NCBI GenBank assembly: GCA_913009695.1
Contig: CAJVWV010000004.1
Location: 1 to 53,152, forward strand
Reading direction: 5' to 3'
DNA from: an uncultured bacterium
Lineage (GTDB): Bacteria > Patescibacteriota > Patescibacteriia > Patescibacteriales > SZUA-104
DNA length: 53,152 bases
Positions 40,751-49,258 of this stretch are shown here, in pieces. Position 1 is the stretch's first letter. The number at the start of each line of letters is the position of its first letter. Position numbers and translations under genes: made by a program. The notes under the pieces were generated by a model. That model saw only the letters and a list, made by a program, of their open reading frames with translations, was not told where the DNA came from and did not search any database.

Positions 40751-40754
40751 ATGA
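40684..40754 (+). promoter_or_regulatory. abiE promoter with direct repeats over the start codon
   Basis: TTGTTT (40684-40689), a 17-nt spacer and TATAAT (40707-40712). Two copies of ACTATATATGA follow at 40727-40737 and 40744-40754, 17 nt apart, the second covering the abiEi ATG. AbiEi antitoxins repress their own operon in known systems, so these are likely operator units. The first repeat also opens a six-codon frame ending in the ATGA of abiEi. Confidence 0.65.
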
Positions 40755-41524
40755 AAAATACAATATTAAGTGAAAAAGACGCTCAAATTATAGAAAAAGT
40801 AATATTAAAGTATGGGCGAATAGTTGTTATAGGCGATTTAATGGGAATATTTACGAAATATTACAATAAATCATCCGCCCACAACAGAATACAAACATTG
40901 GTTCGCGCCGGCTGGTTTTTGCGCGTTAAAAGAGGACTTTATTTAATAGTTGAAGGATTAGCTTCAAGGTCAATCAGTGATATATCTTTATTTATTATTT
41001 CTCAAGCGTTAAATAAAGATTCATATATTTCGCTTGACAGCGCTTTAAATTATTACCAAATGTTTGACCAATACTCTAAGAATGTAGCAGCGATAAATTA
41101 TCGTTTTAGCAAGCAGTATATTTTTCAGGGAAATGTTTTTAAATTCATAAAGGTGGCGAAAAAATATTACTTTGGATTTACGCGAATTCGCCAAGATGGG
41201 AAAATGATAAACATGGCAACAAAAGAAAAAGCGCTTTTGGATTATTTATATTTGGATAGAAGTTTTTATTCCGCCAGCTTAGTTTATGAAAAAATAAAAG
41301 AGCATAAAAAAGAAATTGATTTTATAAAATTGCGGGAATACGCATTGAAATACGGAATTTCAATTCAAAGAAAATTGGGGTTATTATTGGATCAAATAGG
41401 AATAAACGCCGATGAATTGTTGCGCAATTCAAAAATGCGTAAGGGGTATTCCCAGTTTACCAAAGAATCAAAAATATTTAACGCCAAATGGCGGATTTAT
41501 TATGATGATAGAATTATTAAGTAG
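40751..41524 (+). CDS. AbiEi-type antitoxin
   Basis: A 257-residue protein with a winged-helix N-terminus (about 13-70: IVVIGDLMGIFTKYYNKSSAHNRIQTLVRAGWFLRVKRGLYLI), the tetra-helical start followed by 'G.Y' wing seen in AbiEi regulators. The C-terminal part is the helical antitoxin domain. It overlaps the toxin gene by 23 nt. In type IV AbiE systems AbiEi both represses the operon and counters the toxin without binding it. The system confers abortive phage defence in other bacteria. Confidence 0.82.
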   Translation: MKNTILSEKDAQIIEKVILKYGRIVVIGDLMGIFTKYYNKSSAHNRIQTLVRAGWFLRVKRGLYLIVEGLASRSISDISLFIISQALNKDSYISLDSALNYYQMFDQYSKNVAAINYRFSKQYIFQGNVFKFIKVAKKYYFGFTRIRQDGKMINMATKEKALLDYLYLDRSFYSASLVYEKIKEHKKEIDFIKLREYALKYGISIQRKLGLLLDQIGINADELLRNSKMRKGYSQFTKESKIFNAKWRIYYDDRIIK

Positions 41525-42278
41525 GCAGGAGTTGATTTTGCTTAACAAAAAACTGAAGTATCCTTTAGCTATCGCCGAAAAAGATTATTTTTTGGCATTG
41601 GTTTCCAAAATTATTTTTGATTCAGTATTGAAAGACAAATTGATTTTTAAGGGTGGAACAGCGTTGCATCATGTCTATCTGCCTCAGCTTAGGTTTTCCG
41701 AAGATTTGGATTTTTCCAGCAACGCGAATAAAATAGAACTTGAAGAAGTTAAGAATATTTTTAGCGATTTTGATTTTTTGGAAATAAAAAAAGATTATGT
41801 TTCCGGGGCAACGGTTAAAATTGAGCGGCTTAAATATGCCGGTCCATTAGTGCAGGAAAATTCGCTTAAGGTAGAAATAGATTTTTTGCAGAATGTCGTT
41901 TTGCCGCCGCTTGAATTGAATTACAAAAATGTTTATGGCGTTAAAACCAAAGTCAGAGTTATGGATATAAGAGAGATAGCGGCTGAGAAAATAAGAGCCA
42001 TGAATGATAGAGTGAGATACAGGGATTTTTATGATTTTGCCATGATTATGAAAAAGCTGGATGTTAACGCGAGCGAAGTTGTAGGTCTGGTTAAGCAAAA
42101 AGAAATCAGAAAGGCTATAAGCAGAGAGAATATTTTAAATAATTGGCAACTGGCCAAGCAGGAGAAGAAAAGGGAATTTGCAAGCATTTATTATTCTGAA
42201 GAAGCGCCGGACATGGAAATGGAAAAAATGCTTAAAGGACTGAATATTAAAACTATTAATGTTAATAATCAACAATAA
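41502..42278 (+). CDS. AbiEii-type nucleotidyltransferase toxin
   Basis: A 258-residue protein of the AbiEii/AbiGii nucleotidyltransferase family. The active-site motif is complete: IFKGGTALHHVYLPQLRFSEDLDFS (G and D-x-D around residues 47-70 from the chosen start). A later block, REIAAEKIRAMNDRVRYRDFYDFAMIM, holds the conserved KxxA and RxxRDxxD residues. Family members transfer nucleotides to tRNA or other targets and block growth. ATG 41502 is preferred to a TTG at 41412. It ends 1 nt before the M16 gene. Confidence 0.87.
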   Translation: MMIELLSRQELILLNKKLKYPLAIAEKDYFLALVSKIIFDSVLKDKLIFKGGTALHHVYLPQLRFSEDLDFSSNANKIELEEVKNIFSDFDFLEIKKDYVSGATVKIERLKYAGPLVQENSLKVEIDFLQNVVLPPLELNYKNVYGVKTKVRVMDIREIAAEKIRAMNDRVRYRDFYDFAMIMKKLDVNASEVVGLVKQKEIRKAISRENILNNWQLAKQEKKREFASIYYSEEAPDMEMEKMLKGLNIKTINVNNQQ

Positions 42279-43533: not shown

Positions 43534-43570
43534 GTAAGCACAAGCGGACTGTTTGCGAACGGGAGTGAGC

Positions 43571-43639
43571 GGACAGTTTGCGGTAGTGGACGAACGAATT
43601 CGCAAACTGTCCATTCGCTCCGCTCATAAACAGTCCGTA
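43571..43639. repeat. REP-like family B, left copy
   Basis: Arms GGACAGTTTGCG (43571-43582) and CGCAAACTGTCC (43601-43612), then ATTCGCTCCGCTCATAAACA and GTCCG. An outer CGGACTGTTT at 43544 pairs with the terminal ACAGTCCG. Confidence 0.88.
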
Positions 43640-43744
43640 AATTTAAGACAAGCGAACCTGCGGATGTGAATTTTCAAGACATAAATTTACAAACTGTCCG
43701 TTCCGCTGAGGCGAAACAAACAGTCCGCAAATTTAAAATAAAAT

Positions 43745-44330
43745 ATGCGTTTAGATCGATATAGAAATTTTCATAAAAATGGAATTTATCATATTTATAA
43801 CCGAGGCAACAATAAAAATAATATTTTTTTAGACAAGATAGATTATGTTTTTTATCTCATAGAATTAAGAAAATGTTTAAAGAAATATGATGTTGCTTTA
43901 TTAGGTTATTGTTTAATGCCGAATCATATTCATTTAGAGGCAAGACAGAACAGCGAAGTTTCTTTGTCAAAATGTATCGGCGATTTGCACACAAAGTATT
44001 CAAGTTATTGCAATAAAAAATATAATAAAATCGGTCATTTATTTCAGGGAAGGTTTAAGACCAAGGAAGCAAAATCTGAAGCGCAAATATTGGAACTGGT
44101 TTTTTTATATCCATATTAATCCGGTTAGCGCGAAATTAACGGAATATCCTGAGGATTGGGAATGGTCAAGCGCGCGGGATTACGCGGAATTAAGAAATGG
44201 GACATTATGCGATAAAAAAATAGCATTAGATCTGTTAAGCGGATTAGAGGAATATAATAAGATAATGAAGGATAAGTTGGCGAAGAAGCAGTGGGATAAA
44301 ATTGACGAATTGTTATTTTATGAAGCCTGA
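43745..44330 (+). pseudogene. REP-associated tyrosine transposase (RAYT), frameshifted
   Basis: The first frame (43745-44119) encodes a Y1/HUH transposase: GIYHIYNRGNNKNNIFLDKIDY start, HUH in MPNHIHLE, and the catalytic-Tyr helix region KYSSYCNKKYNKIGHLFQGRFK. At the T-run 44100-44106 the frame breaks. One base fewer would continue as VFYIHINPVSAKLTEYPEDW, the family's next conserved block, to a stop at 44330. The gene is thus whole but for a one-base shift. A real mutation, a slippery-site frameshift or a sequence error are all possible. The flanking palindromes are its probable substrates. Confidence 0.85.
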
Positions 44331-44333
44331 AGT

Positions 44334-44402
44334 GGACAGTTCGCGGTAGCGGACTAACGAATTCGCAAACTGTCCATTCGCTCCGCTCATAAACAGTCCG
44401 CA
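44334..44402. repeat. REP-like family B, right copy
   Basis: Nearly the same as 43571-43639 with only a few changes in ~69 nt, starting 3 nt after the transposase stop codon. Confidence 0.88.
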
Positions 44403-44426: not shown

Positions 44427-45020
44427 ATGAAAAGAATAAAAGTAAAGCCACCATACATTTCATTAACACAGCAAAAATTATGCTGTGTGCCTTGCGCTAT
44501 TCAGTGGATTTTATTGAGGAGAGGATTAAAACTAGTTGAGCAGGAAATTATAGGAAGAGAGCTGGATTTAATAGTGCCTAAAAAGTTTAAACATTTATTT
44601 ATTGGTAAAGTTAAAATAGGTGGAAGGCATCAAAAAAGAGATTATGGAACACATGAAACAGACGGCGTAAAAACGAATAAATTTTTAAAAAAGTATAAAA
44701 TACCATTAAAAGCTAAAAAGATTTTTTATTCAGAATTTAAAGACGTTCAACATGCCGCTGAAATAATCGTTGATAATTTAAAGAAAGGAAATGATATGAT
44801 GATTGTCACTTATTTAGCGGCTATTTGGCCAAAAAAGAAAAACGGACACGCAATGCTAATCAGTGAAATTATACTTAATAAAAAACCGAAAATAGTTGTT
44901 GGAGAACCAACTTTTATGAGAAAAAAGTTTTACGAGCTTGATTTAGCTAAGGTTATTAAGGGGATGGATAAAAAATGGGACGGCGAGGAAAGAGGGATTT
45001 ATGTTTTTAGTAAAAGATAA
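44427..45020 (+). CDS. Putative papain-fold (C39-like) protein
   Basis: A 197-residue protein. The N-terminal YISLTQQKLCCVPCAIQWIL resembles the Q...C block of C39-type cysteine proteases (C19, C20 and C23 are candidates). A likely His lies in KKNGHAMLISEI, and an Asn/Asp-containing strand follows. No signal peptide is seen, so it would act in the cytoplasm. It could be a peptidase or an inactive relative. It ends 8 nt before the helicase-nuclease gene and shares its strand; the functional link is unknown. Confidence 0.55.
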   Translation: MKRIKVKPPYISLTQQKLCCVPCAIQWILLRRGLKLVEQEIIGRELDLIVPKKFKHLFIGKVKIGGRHQKRDYGTHETDGVKTNKFLKKYKIPLKAKKIFYSEFKDVQHAAEIIVDNLKKGNDMMIVTYLAAIWPKKKNGHAMLISEIILNKKPKIVVGEPTFMRKKFYELDLAKVIKGMDKKWDGEERGIYVFSKR

Positions 45021-45028
45021 AATTTAAT

Positions 45029-48000
45029 ATGGTTAATAATTTAATGGAAAATTTAAATAAAGAGCAGCTTGAAGCCGTTACTCATAGGGAGGGCCCGCTT
45101 TTGATTGTGGCGGGTGCTGGAACCGGTAAAACGACCGTTATAACGCAAAAAATCGCCTATATGATTGAGCAGGGTTTGGCAAATTCAGATGAGATACTTG
45201 CACTAACTTTTACGGAAAAAGCGGCAGGAGAAATGGAAGAAAGAGTTGATAGACTTCTGCCAATTGGATATTTAGATTTATGGATTTCTACTTTTCACAG
45301 CTTTGCTGAAAAAATTTTACAAGCGCATGGTTTAGAAATTGGTCTTCCTTCCGGATTTAAGTTATTAAACGAATTTGAACAATGGATTTTAATAAAAAAG
45401 AATTTAGATAAGTTTGAACTGGATTATTACCAGCCGGTTGGTAATCCGACTAAATTTATTAATGCTTTGCTTAAACATTTTTCGCGGCTTAAAGACGAAG
45501 ATATTAATCCGAAACAATATTTAGAATACGCGGAAGAGCTAAAACAGAATCTAGATAATGCGTTATCAGGAGGCAGTACCAAGACAAAGCTTAAAAAAAT
45601 AATTTTCGTGGATATAGACGGAGAAATTACAAAAGAAATGGCCACGCAGGAAGTGGCGCGAATTAACGAAGTAGCCAATGCCTACCATATTTATCAAAAT
45701 CTTCTTTTAGAGGAAGAGTCTATGGACTTCGGAGATTTAATAAATTATACTTTAAAATTATTCCGTGAACGCCCTTTAATTTTAGAAAAATACAAACATC
45801 AGTTTAAATATATATTGGTTGATGAATTTCAAGATACTAATTGGGCGCAATATGAATTAGTTAAAATGCTGACCAATAAAAAGAATAATTTAACCGTTGT
45901 GGGAGATGATGATCAATGTTTGCCGGGCAATAGCATGATTTTAACAAAAGATGGAAAGAAGAGGATAGATAATATAAAAGCAGGAGAGGAAGTGGCGACC
46001 GCGGTGGGTAAAGGTTATTTAAGTTATAGTAGGGTAAATTATGTAAATAGAAATAAAAAACAAGCAAGATTATTAACTTTTAAAACTAAAAAAGGGCATA
46101 AAATAACAGTGACGGATAATCATAAGATGTTTTGTTTTGTGCCTCCCAGCCAGTGGGAACATTCAATCTCAAGAAAAGAAGATAAAAAGTTTTATTATGT
46201 GTATTTAATGCATAAGCAAGAATTAGGATGGCGGATGGGCATAACAAATGATTTGGCGGTTAGATTAAAATTAGAAAGATCCGCGGATAAAATTATTGCC
46301 ATTAAAGCATTTAACTCTGAAGAAGAAGCAAAATATAATGAGACATTACTTTCCCTTAAATATGGCGTTCCAACGGTTTGTTTTCAGGAAAGAGGGGGCG
46401 TGATGGATAAAAAAGAATGGAGCGAAAAATTATATAAAGATTTAGATGTTGAAAGTAACGTGATTAAATTGGCCAATGATTTAAAGATTGATTTAGAAGC
46501 GCATCAAGTTTGTTTAGATGCCGTTAATAGAGGCGGTAAAGTAAGGATTAAAATTATACTGGAAATGTGCTATAGAAATTATCGCTCTAAAGGCGCTAAA
46601 AGTATTTTTTTGCAAAGCCCTAAGGTTATGCATCAGTTAACCGTTGAAACCAGCCATAAGCCAACACTTAAAAAGATAGATGAGATGGGATTTAATTTAG
46701 TTAAAGCTAAAAAGGGAAAGCGATTAAGAATATCTAACGCTGATTTAAGTTATTTAGGAATATTTGCGCGTAAAATTCAGAAAAGTACAGGTGGGATTAT
46801 TGAAAATAGAATTAAAGTCGGCAAAACAAACATTGCCCACAAAAAAGCATTAATAGTGCCGGCAAGCAATGTTTTGCCGGGGATGTTTTTGCCGGTTGTG
46901 ACAAAACAGGGTATTATTTATGACCAAATTATAGATAGAAAAAAGCAGGAGAAAAAAATAACTGTTTATGATTTAGAAATTGACCGCACTCATAATTTTG
47001 TCGCTAATGGAGTTGTCGTTCATAATTCAATTTATAGGTTCAGGGGAGCATCCATGAGTAATATTTTACAATTTAAAAAAGATTATAAAAAAGCTGAACA
47101 AATAGCTTTAGTTAAAAACTATCGTAACACGCAGGATATTCTAGATTTGTCTTATGAATTCGTTAAATTAAATAATCCTAATCGATTGGAATACCAACTT
47201 AGTCGAAAGTCGAAAGTCGAAAGTCGAAAGTCAGAACAGAAGTTAAATAAAAAATTAGAAGCACAGGAAAAGGGCAAAGGTGAAATAGAGGTTATTCAAG
47301 GCGAAGATTTAAACGATGAAGTTAGACAAGTCGTTGAAAAGATTGCTGACATTAAAATCAAAGACAAAAAATCAAACTGGGGAGATTTTGCTATATTGGT
47401 GCGCGCGAACGAAAGCGCGAAAGAGTTTTCTAATGCTCTTGAGGTGGCTGATCTACCTTATCAGTTTTTAGCTTCGCGCGGTCTTTACACAAAGCCGGTT
47501 ATTATGGATATTATTGCTTACTTGAATTTATTGGACAATTACCATGAAAGTAAATCCATGTATCGCGTATTAAACCTGCCGATTTTTGATTTTTCTTATC
47601 AGGAATTAGTAAATTTTAATTATTGGGCATACAAAAAAACATGGTCGCTTTTTGAAGTTTTAAAAAGCGCGGCTTGCCTTAATTTGGGCGTAGATTTACA
47701 GAAAAAAATTGAAAAAGTTTTAAGCTTAATAGAAAAGCATACTTCTTTGGTGCGAGACAATAGTGTTAGCGAAATTATTTTAGCGTTTTTGAATGATAGT
47801 GGCTACTTAAAACATATAACTTCGCAGGATGAACAAAAGAGCAGAGAGCTAGCCAGTTATTTAAACCAGTTTATGAAACGCATAAAAACTTTTGAAGCCG
47901 GTTCGGATGAAAAAAGCGTAAAATTATTTTTAGAGGAATTAAGAATGGAAATTAATTCGGGGGAGCAAGGCGCGTTAATGCCCGACATGGAATTAGGCCC

Positions 48001-49258
48001 TGATACTATTAAGCTAATGACCGCTCATGGCGCCAAGGGGCTTGAGTTTAAATATGTATTTATCGTTAATATGGTTGATAAACGGTTCCCGACGATTAAA
48101 AGAAAGGATCCAATTTTAATTCCGGACGCGTTAATTAAGGAAATTTTGCCGGAGGGAGATATTCATATTGAAGAAGAGCGAAGATTATTTTACGTTGCTA
48201 TGACGCGCGCCAAGCAGGGTTTATATTTTTCTTGGGCGCCCGATTATGGACTCGCAAGAAAGAAGAAACCTTCAAGATTTTTAGAGGAGTGCGGATTAAT
48301 TAAAATCAAGGAATCTAAAAAAAGTACAAAGAAAGATTTAGAAGAAGAGTTTAGTAAAACAAAAAAACTTGATTCAGGGTTCAAACAAATAGGATACAAA
48401 GCACCTTCATATTTTTCTTATACGCAACTAGCTACGTTTTCAAACTGTCCTTATCAATATAGGTTCGCGCATATTTTACGTATTCCAATGCGAGGCAAAG
48501 CAATTTTTTCATTCGGAAAAACAATGCACTCTACTTTGCAAAAATTATTTGAATTAATAAATGAAAAAAAGAACCTGAAGCAAGGGGACTTATTCGGGGA
48601 AACCGCCCCCACCCCCAGCCCCTCCCCCACTCCTTCGTCGCGGGAGAGGGGAGCTAAAACAAAAACTGGTCAAGTAAATATTAGTTTGGATGAAATTTTA
48701 GAAATTTATGAACAAAGCTGGATTGATGATTGGTATGAATCTAAAAAACAAAAAGAAGAATACAAAAAAAATGGCAAAGAGATATTAAAAGGTTTTTATG
48801 AAAAATATAAAGATAATTGGCCAAAAGTAGTTATGACCGAGAAAGGATTTAATATTAAATTGCCCAGTAACGGCGACGTATATACTGTTAGAGGGTTTAT
48901 TGATAGGATTGATATGGTGGACGGCCACCGCCCAGGCGGGGCAAGAAAATTAAAAATTGTAGATTATAAAACAGGTAAGCCAAAAGAAAAATTAAGTTTT
49001 GATGAAAAAGAGCAGCTTTTAATCTATCAGATGGCGGTTAAGGATTTATTTAAGGAAGACGTCGGTTCAGTCGCTTTTTATTATTTAAACAACAATACTG
49101 AAGTAGAATTTCTTGGCACTGATGAAGAGCTGGAAAAAGTCAGGGAGAAAATTATAAACAATATTGAAGAGATAAAAAAAGGTGAATTTCCTCCAAAACC
49201 GTCTCAGTTATGTAAGTTTTGTGATTTTTTTGATATTTGTGAGTTTAGGAAGGCATAA
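45029..49258 (+). CDS. UvrD/AddA-type helicase fused to PD-(D/E)XK nuclease, with an intein
   Basis: A 1409-residue reading frame, or 1039 residues after removal of a 370-residue intein. Helicase motifs: Walker A GAGTGKT (29-35), Walker B VDEFQDTN, motif III GDDDQ/SIYRFRGA (split by the intein), and later KNYRNTQDIL, TAHGAKGLEFKYVF and RRLFYVAMTRAK. The C-terminal part is a RecB/Cas4-like nuclease (RGFIDRID, IVDYKTG) with four cysteines, one in SNCPYQY and three in CKFCDFFDIC, arranged as for an AddB-type iron-sulfur cluster. The likely role is double-strand break end processing. AGTCGAA repeats and a C-rich palindrome are translated within it. Confidence 0.93.
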   Translation: MVNNLMENLNKEQLEAVTHREGPLLIVAGAGTGKTTVITQKIAYMIEQGLANSDEILALTFTEKAAGEMEERVDRLLPIGYLDLWISTFHSFAEKILQAHGLEIGLPSGFKLLNEFEQWILIKKNLDKFELDYYQPVGNPTKFINALLKHFSRLKDEDINPKQYLEYAEELKQNLDNALSGGSTKTKLKKIIFVDIDGEITKEMATQEVARINEVANAYHIYQNLLLEEESMDFGDLINYTLKLFRERPLILEKYKHQFKYILVDEFQDTNWAQYELVKMLTNKKNNLTVVGDDDQCLPGNSMILTKDGKKRIDNIKAGEEVATAVGKGYLSYSRVNYVNRNKKQARLLTFKTKKGHKITVTDNHKMFCFVPPSQWEHSISRKEDKKFYYVYLMHKQELGWRMGITNDLAVRLKLERSADKIIAIKAFNSEEEAKYNETLLSLKYGVPTVCFQERGGVMDKKEWSEKLYKDLDVESNVIKLANDLKIDLEAHQVCLDAVNRGGKVRIKIILEMCYRNYRSKGAKSIFLQSPKVMHQLTVETSHKPTLKKIDEMGFNLVKAKKGKRLRISNADLSYLGIFARKIQKSTGGIIENRIKVGKTNIAHKKALIVPASNVLPGMFLPVVTKQGIIYDQIIDRKKQEKKITVYDLEIDRTHNFVANGVVVHNSIYRFRGASMSNILQFKKDYKKAEQIALVKNYRNTQDILDLSYEFVKLNNPNRLEYQLSRKSKVESRKSEQKLNKKLEAQEKGKGEIEVIQGEDLNDEVRQVVEKIADIKIKDKKSNWGDFAILVRANESAKEFSNALEVADLPYQFLASRGLYTKPVIMDIIAYLNLLDNYHESKSMYRVLNLPIFDFSYQELVNFNYWAYKKTWSLFEVLKSAACLNLGVDLQKKIEKVLSLIEKHTSLVRDNSVSEIILAFLNDSGYLKHITSQDEQKSRELASYLNQFMKRIKTFEAGSDEKSVKLFLEELRMEINSGEQGALMPDMELGPDTIKLMTAHGAKGLEFKYVFIVNMVDKRFPTIKRKDPILIPDALIKEILPEGDIHIEEERRLFYVAMTRAKQGLYFSWAPDYGLARKKKPSRFLEECGLIKIKESKKSTKKDLEEEFSKTKKLDSGFKQIGYKAPSYFSYTQLATFSNCPYQYRFAHILRIPMRGKAIFSFGKTMHSTLQKLFELINEKKNLKQGDLFGETAPTPSPSPTPSSRERGAKTKTGQVNISLDEILEIYEQSWIDDWYESKKQKEEYKKNGKEILKGFYEKYKDNWPKVVMTEKGFNIKLPSNGDVYTVRGFIDRIDMVDGHRPGGARKLKIVDYKTGKPKEKLSFDEKEQLLIYQMAVKDLFKEDVGSVAFYYLNNNTEVEFLGTDEELEKVREKIINNIEEIKKGEFPPKPSQLCKFCDFFDICEFRKA
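45917..47026 (+). other. Intein in helicase motif III, GIY-YIG-like insert
   Basis: Residues 297-666 of the frame. It starts with C297 (CLPGNSMILTKDGKKRI, block A), has block B with T-x-x-H in VTDNHK, block F (VYDLEIDRTHNFVANG) and ends VVVHN before Ser667, so all splicing residues are present. Between them, residues ~388-455 read YYVYLM, then WRMGITND, an Arg, and a Glu in KYNETLLSLKYG. This looks like a GIY-YIG homing endonuclease domain in place of the usual LAGLIDADG. It sits between Q and S of the DDDQSIY motif. Confidence 0.88.
47201..47231 (+). repeat. AGTCGAA heptamer, four tandem units (in helicase gene)
   Basis: Four exact AGTCGAA units then AGTC, translated as SRKSKVESRKS right after the conserved NPNRLEYQL segment. 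Same unit and copy number as at 39298. Confidence 0.95.
48606..48653 (+). repeat. C-rich/G-rich palindrome in the helicase gene
   Basis: CCCCTCCCCC and GCGGGAGAGGGGAG arms, read as TPSPSPTPSSRERGA in the nuclease part, between the first Fe-S cysteine region and the RGFIDRID block. Related to the insert at 2806 in ftsK. Confidence 0.7.

Follow-up and report, generated by a model that had tools for sequence, protein, structure and literature searches.

In the window, that is, the whole 53,152-nt stretch of DNA from a tiny uncultured bacterium of Patescibacteria type that was analyzed, motif III of a DNA-repair helicase is split by a complete 370-aa class 1 intein (GDDDQ^C...HN^S). This intein is probably a mobile element, which carries in frame a compact homing endonuclease of a GIY-YIG 'RIG' type and a second module that would aid DNA recognition. 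The features are listed in Table 1.

Table 1. Features of the helicase gene and its intein in the window; residue numbers are those of the intein.
Feature	Position	Strand	Basis
Host gene, UvrD/PcrA-like SF1 helicase with C-terminal PD-(D/E)XK nuclease domain	45029..49258	+	PF00580, PF13361, PF12705
N-extein, ending ...VVGDDDQ (first half of motif III)	45029..45916	+	uninterrupted in homologues
Intein, 370 aa, C1 ... H369 N370	45917..47026	+	PF14890, TIGR01445, TIGR01443; AlphaFold
N-terminal Hint part, blocks A and B, TDNH at 66-69	45917..46141	+	TIGR01445, residues 1-72
Predicted GIY-YIG-type domain, residues 92-159	46190..46393	+	hhalign P 1.4e-5 and 2.4e-6, AlphaFold
Tyr96, Tyr of the GIY half-motif, presumed general base	46202..46204	+	invariant 29/29; role by analogy, PMC4081073
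Arg106, Arg at the YIG Tyr position	46232..46234	+	Arg in 29/29 inteins
Arg116, predicted catalytic Arg, first helix	46262..46264	+	invariant, aligned to GIY-YIG Arg
Glu142, predicted metal-binding Glu, last helix	46340..46342	+	invariant, aligned to GIY-YIG Glu
Second module, candidate DNA-recognition part, residues 160-303	46394..46825	+	AlphaFold
C-terminal Hint part, block F VYDLEIDRTHNFV, block G VVVHN	46838..47026	+	TIGR01443
C-extein, starting SIYRFRGA	47027..49255	+	Pfam matches
PD-(D/E)XK domain within C-extein	about 48413-49243	+	Pfam match

The host ORF encodes a precursor of 1409 aa, or 1039 aa after the predicted splicing, and was matched by PF00580 (E 3e-70), PF13361 (7e-52) and PF12705 (1.5e-32). 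The intein occupies residues 297-666 of this precursor and is the sole intein found in its genome. It was matched by PF14890 (Intein_splicing) with E 3e-17 and 63 bits (cut-off 36), and by the NCBIfam models TIGR01445 in the N-terminal (1e-8) and TIGR01443 in the C-terminal region (9e-8). The class 1 splicing residues, namely C1, T66-D-N-H69, H369-N370 and Ser+1, are all there and are kept in the relatives. The intein coordinates, the splicing blocks and the lengths of the intein and the spliced form that had been claimed in an earlier note on this DNA proved exact, and the split of GDDDQ/SIYRFRGA, which it placed in the ATPase core, lies in helicase motif III.

Helicases of sister lineages were then compared for empty sites, as the earlier note had proposed. 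The site was empty in 27 same-order homologues sampled, in which GDDDQ (or ADDDQ) runs straight into a SIY/AIY/SIF-type stretch, and was occupied by the same intein type in two (G286 and G289). Same-site relatives of the insert were present in 5 of the 285 other genomes of the class (286 sampled including the window's own), and a scan of the genome collection yielded 20 loci with the insert, mostly in Patescibacteria and two labelled Omnitrophota. Since relatives occur at the same site in other genomes and at these 20 loci, the insert is no chance feature. The collection scan used an alignment of five close members, as one that included the divergent L007 was too weak. Two candidate relatives from the class-genome scan, L008 and L009, were discarded as spurious matches in unrelated ORFs.

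The string YYVYLM...WRMGITND...R...E, from which the earlier note had read a GIY-YIG-like domain, is present at intein residues 93-142; no Pfam, NCBIfam or PHROG family matched the insert. The alignment of 29 inserts was compared by hhalign, as a profile, with 26 GIY-YIG proteins gathered with PF01541 from related genomes, and a score of 32.2 was obtained (P 1.4e-5). The match was colinear over the first ~65 residues of the insert, with GIY/YVY, YIG/RIG, Arg/Arg and Glu/Glu paired. The controls scored 14.2 (reversed alignment), 13.7 (second module) and 8.8 (Hint), the best of 200 column shuffles against the GIY-YIG profile reached 17.5, and a repeat with a separate alignment gave 28.8 (P 5e-5). 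The Patescibacteria/Omnitrophota members alone matched the GIY-YIG profile at P 2.4e-6, and the phage, plasmid and PcrA members alone at P 3.7e-4. The motif spacing was nearly identical, being Y5-G17-T19-R25 in the inteins and Y5-G18-T20-R26 in the GIY-YIG proteins. GIY-YIG relatives also came first in two other searches, non-significantly when taken singly: T5orf172 was the lowest-E Pfam match of any member (E 0.028), and the GIY-YIG protein 1zg2 was the best PDB sequence match of the domain profile (E 0.78).

AlphaFold modelled the intein with a pLDDT of 91.3 and a pTM of 0.88 when 24 sequences were supplied, and with a pLDDT of 32 from the single sequence alone. The GIY-YIG part of the model consists of strands 93-100 and 104-110, helix 113-119, strand 123-132 and helix 135-149, a b-b-a-b-a order in which the first helix holds Arg116 and the last one Glu142. 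The GIY-YIG fold as in I-TevI and UvrC has the same order plus a second helix, and the model agrees in element order with the fold that defines the superfamily, a three-stranded sheet with flanking helices (b-b-a-(a)-b-a). Foldseek of the whole model against PDB matched the Hint part only; the search was dominated by Hint, but the three best viral matches span the full length, one of them named helicase and one adenine methyltransferase. The structure prediction and profile test of the insert proposed in the earlier note thus gave an agreeing element order and a colinear match, and together with Tyr, Arg and Glu being invariant in 29 relatives, they uphold its GIY-YIG reading. Judged by sequence homology, the insert domain is predicted to belong to the GIY-YIG superfamily.

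Y96, R106, G108, R116 and E142 were conserved in 29 of 29 relatives sampled, which come from bacteria, from phages and from a plasmid. Of the motif described earlier, the GIY half, the Arg and the Glu held, while the supposed 'YIG' half is 'RIG': the Tyr, which all 26 GIY-YIG comparison proteins have, is replaced by Arg in all 29 inteins, and the usual His after the catalytic Arg is also replaced, mostly by Glu120. The YIG Tyr does not strictly define the superfamily. The GIY-half Tyr is thought to be the general base of GIY-YIG nucleases (PMC4081073), and R.Hpy188I, which has Lys at the YIG Tyr position, is an active enzyme (PMC2630997, PMC4081073). R.Hpy188I is a restriction enzyme, unlike the nuclease domain of the window intein, and its basic residue is Lys rather than Arg. 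Because this enzyme is active with Lys and the GIY Tyr is invariant here, the loss of the YIG Tyr alone does not equal a loss of activity, and by analogy with this Lys precedent the RIG-type domain is regarded as a variant active site. The replaced YIG Tyr and His could have altered or abolished the chemistry.

The first part of the insert is constant in the relatives (YxYLM...GxRxG.T...R...E...E...SLKYGIPT..F). Same-site relatives occur in Patescibacteria, Omnitrophota-labelled genomes, phi92-like coliphages and SPO1. The insert was further found in the inteins of UvrD-like helicases from phi92-like coliphages, KP2025, a 485-kb uncultured phage, SPO1 and CampHawk, and in a Stanieria (cyanobacterial) plasmid and two PcrA-type helicases of Patescibacteria. 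Apart from Stanieria, whose profile E-value was non-significant and which is a member by motif only, all other members were found by the Patescibacteria/Omnitrophota profile with E 4e-18 to 8e-4, while reversed sequences failed. Viral scans with the window family, SPO1 and L007 as queries gave no matches. A GIY-YIG-like intein is also carried by an adenine-methyltransferase/ParB-like protein of Streptococcus suis phages (L035:1361-3472, L069-L077), so this nuclease type is not tied to helicases. Up to 14 GIY-YIG matches each were found in related small genomes, mostly free-standing ORFs of 80-140 aa, and such ORFs are a possible source of the intein's domain. At L017, L019 and L023, labelled uncultured bacterium or Omnitrophota, the extein branch is much longer than the intein branch, and Cys, not Ser, directly follows the intein.

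The intein is under purifying selection. The dN/dS of the GIY domain was 0.03-0.10 in six pairs, no higher than in the Hint part; between the window and L010, it was 0.085 for the whole intein and 0.051 for the GIY domain. Horizontal spread into the same site was also evident. In five of six pairs, the intein showed less silent divergence than either of its flanking exteins (0.53 vs. 0.80-0.84 for window/L010), SPO1/CampHawk being ambiguous, and the third-position identity between KP2025 and PaulScherrer was 91-100% over the first ~200 intein codons vs. 41-52% in the extein upstream. The intein and extein trees of 19 loci rejected each other (AU p 9e-6 and 7e-48). The lower silent divergence of the intein and the mutual rejection of the trees indicated that the element moves. 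The incongruent trees and silent-site differences fit homing, and transfer without homing fits them too.

For the extra ~110 residues behind the nuclease domain, the earlier note had seen no match to a known splicing block and suggested that they may bind DNA. Pfam and PDB profile searches of the second module gave no significant match. It folds confidently, shows only a weak half-LAGLIDADG likeness and is a candidate DNA-recognition part; its end lies near intein residue 303 (~599 in the protein), not ~590. The model, mostly of high confidence, comprises helices 165-176 and 178-189, strands, helix 248-256, two strands and helix 277-291. A half LAGLIDADG domain has this same order (helix, two strands, helix, two strands, helix), and the score against the LAGLIDADG_3 profile, 18.6 (P 0.011), was weak, though above 199 shuffles. 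The module was not accepted as a LAGLIDADG domain, since the same element order comes with only this weak score, and neither a LAGLIDADG motif nor a Pfam match to such an endonuclease was found in the intein. The short inteins of SPO1, the S. suis phages and Stanieria lack the greater part of the module, which argues that the GIY-YIG part is the core. Between phages KP2025 and PaulScherrer (L030 vs. L034), Hint-N plus GIY-YIG were 94-98% identical and the second module 70-72%, so the two parts seem to have separate histories. The second module, of ~110-140 residues, probably helps to recognize DNA. A bolder reading, which we consider unlikely, is that of a two-part endonuclease in a widespread, unnamed class of GIY-YIG inteins, in which a GIY-YIG 'RIG' cutter is joined to a worn-down, DNA-reading LAGLIDADG half without its motif helix; if true, nature would have its own version of the engineered I-TevI-LAGLIDADG fusions.

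What follows on splicing, on DNA cleavage and on its target is inferred, as is the part of the second module in DNA recognition. The precursor helicase would presumably be inactive, because its motif III is split. An acyl shift at Cys1 aided by the TDNH block, transfer to Ser+1 and cyclization of Asn370 with His369 would release the 370-aa intein and restore the helicase. The freed intein would cut helicase genes that lack an intein, at the codons for GDDDQ/SIY; Tyr96 would serve as general base, Arg116 would act on the phosphate and Glu142 would bind the metal ion. The element would then spread when the cut gene is repaired from an intein-bearing copy. That the domain is an active homing endonuclease is likely.

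Other explanations of the insert were weighed against this course. An artefact, either a mis-assembled ORF or an interruption that is a linker rather than an intein, is hardly conceivable: the window genome is fragmented and 80%-complete, but independent assemblies carry the insert at the same codon with 86% (same-family genome) and 65% identity (G289), and the splicing motifs are complete, so an assembly artefact was rejected. It is also very improbable that the insert is an unrelated nuclease or DNA-binding fold whose likeness to GIY-YIG arose by convergence or by chance. In favor of convergence, no single family member passed the Pfam GIY-YIG cut-off or matched T5orf172 significantly. Comparison with T5orf172/MUG113, chosen for the basic residue at their YIG position, likewise gave no match, the T5orf172 profile being shallow (four distinct sequences) with a reversed control of 22.4. 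However, when the family is divided into two sets that do not overlap, each set still gives a colinear match to the GIY-YIG profile, the motif spacing and secondary-structure order agree, and the shuffled and reversed controls fail.

The GIY-YIG fold may instead have been kept while DNA cutting was lost, the domain being degenerate or re-purposed for DNA binding or Hint folding and the element spreading by ordinary recombination. Many natural inteins carry decayed endonucleases, and the replacement of both the YIG Tyr and, mostly, the next His extends to all members. Such a loss is nonetheless rather unlikely, as Tyr96, Arg116 and Glu142 are invariant across a deep divergence that includes phages, the dN/dS of the domain does not exceed that of the Hint part, and the incongruent trees with low intein divergence suggest active spread; R.Hpy188I, moreover, cuts with Lys at the same position (PMC2630997, PMC4081073).

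The closest known systems, the gp34.33 inteins of SPO1/CampHawk (275 aa) and the UvrD inteins of phi92-like phages/Justusliebigvirus (346-347 aa), share the host type, the place in motif III and the GIY-YIG-like insert after block B, with 24-35% identity to the window insert; unlike the window intein, the SPO1-type ones lack most of the second module. The SPO1 and PaulScherrer records annotate an intein and name no nuclease type. The LAGLIDADG (DOD) inteins PI-SceI and PI-PfuI likewise carry an endonuclease after block B of Hint and are mobile by homing, and LAGLIDADG inteins were the best Foldseek matches of the whole model, but the nuclease of the window intein is of the GIY-YIG type and has no LAGLIDADG motif. 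The I-TevI-type endonucleases of group I introns also combine a GIY-YIG domain and a following separate module in a mobile intervening sequence; the window element differs in being an intein, in having RIG instead of YIG and in its second module, which is unrelated as far as tested.

LAGLIDADG nucleases and some HNH nucleases are known from inteins. For the GIY-YIG superfamily, a survey stated in 2006 that no member had been found in an intein (PMC1564403), and in the open literature searched no GIY-YIG domain inside a contiguous intein was reported, only genes beside split inteins, priority being unproven. In AceL NrdHF, a gene fractured by a split intein (PMC7891396), intein and GIY-YIG also occur together, but there the nuclease is a separate ORF between the intein halves, whereas in the window a single contiguous intein contains the nuclease as an in-frame fusion. 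Contiguous GIY-YIG inteins, as a family, would extend the nuclease lineages of inteins by one more, would show repeated endonuclease capture by Hint domains and would provide a small enzyme that consists of one chain and has a variant active site; SPO1 and the phi92-like coliphages are genetically tractable cases for direct homing tests.

Several other features were noted upstream of the helicase gene. An ORF of 124 aa at 43745-44119 encodes a Y1 (IS200-like/REP-associated) transposase (PF01797, 4.5e-12), which may be shortened. Beside it, inverted repeats at 43544-43728 and 44333-44384 contain several imperfect-palindrome copies (GGACTGTTTGCG / CGCAAACTGTCC), and the ORF and palindromes resemble a RAYT with its REP sequences. 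An AbiEii-type nucleotidyltransferase lies at 41412-42278 (PF08843, 1.8e-28) and is overlapped from upstream by a 257-aa ORF without Pfam match (40751-41524); the two are probably an AbiE-like toxin-antitoxin pair. The 197-aa ORF at 44427-45020, also without Pfam match, looks like a putative C39/papain-like peptidase from its Cys...His pattern (LCCVPCAIQ ... HAMLI).
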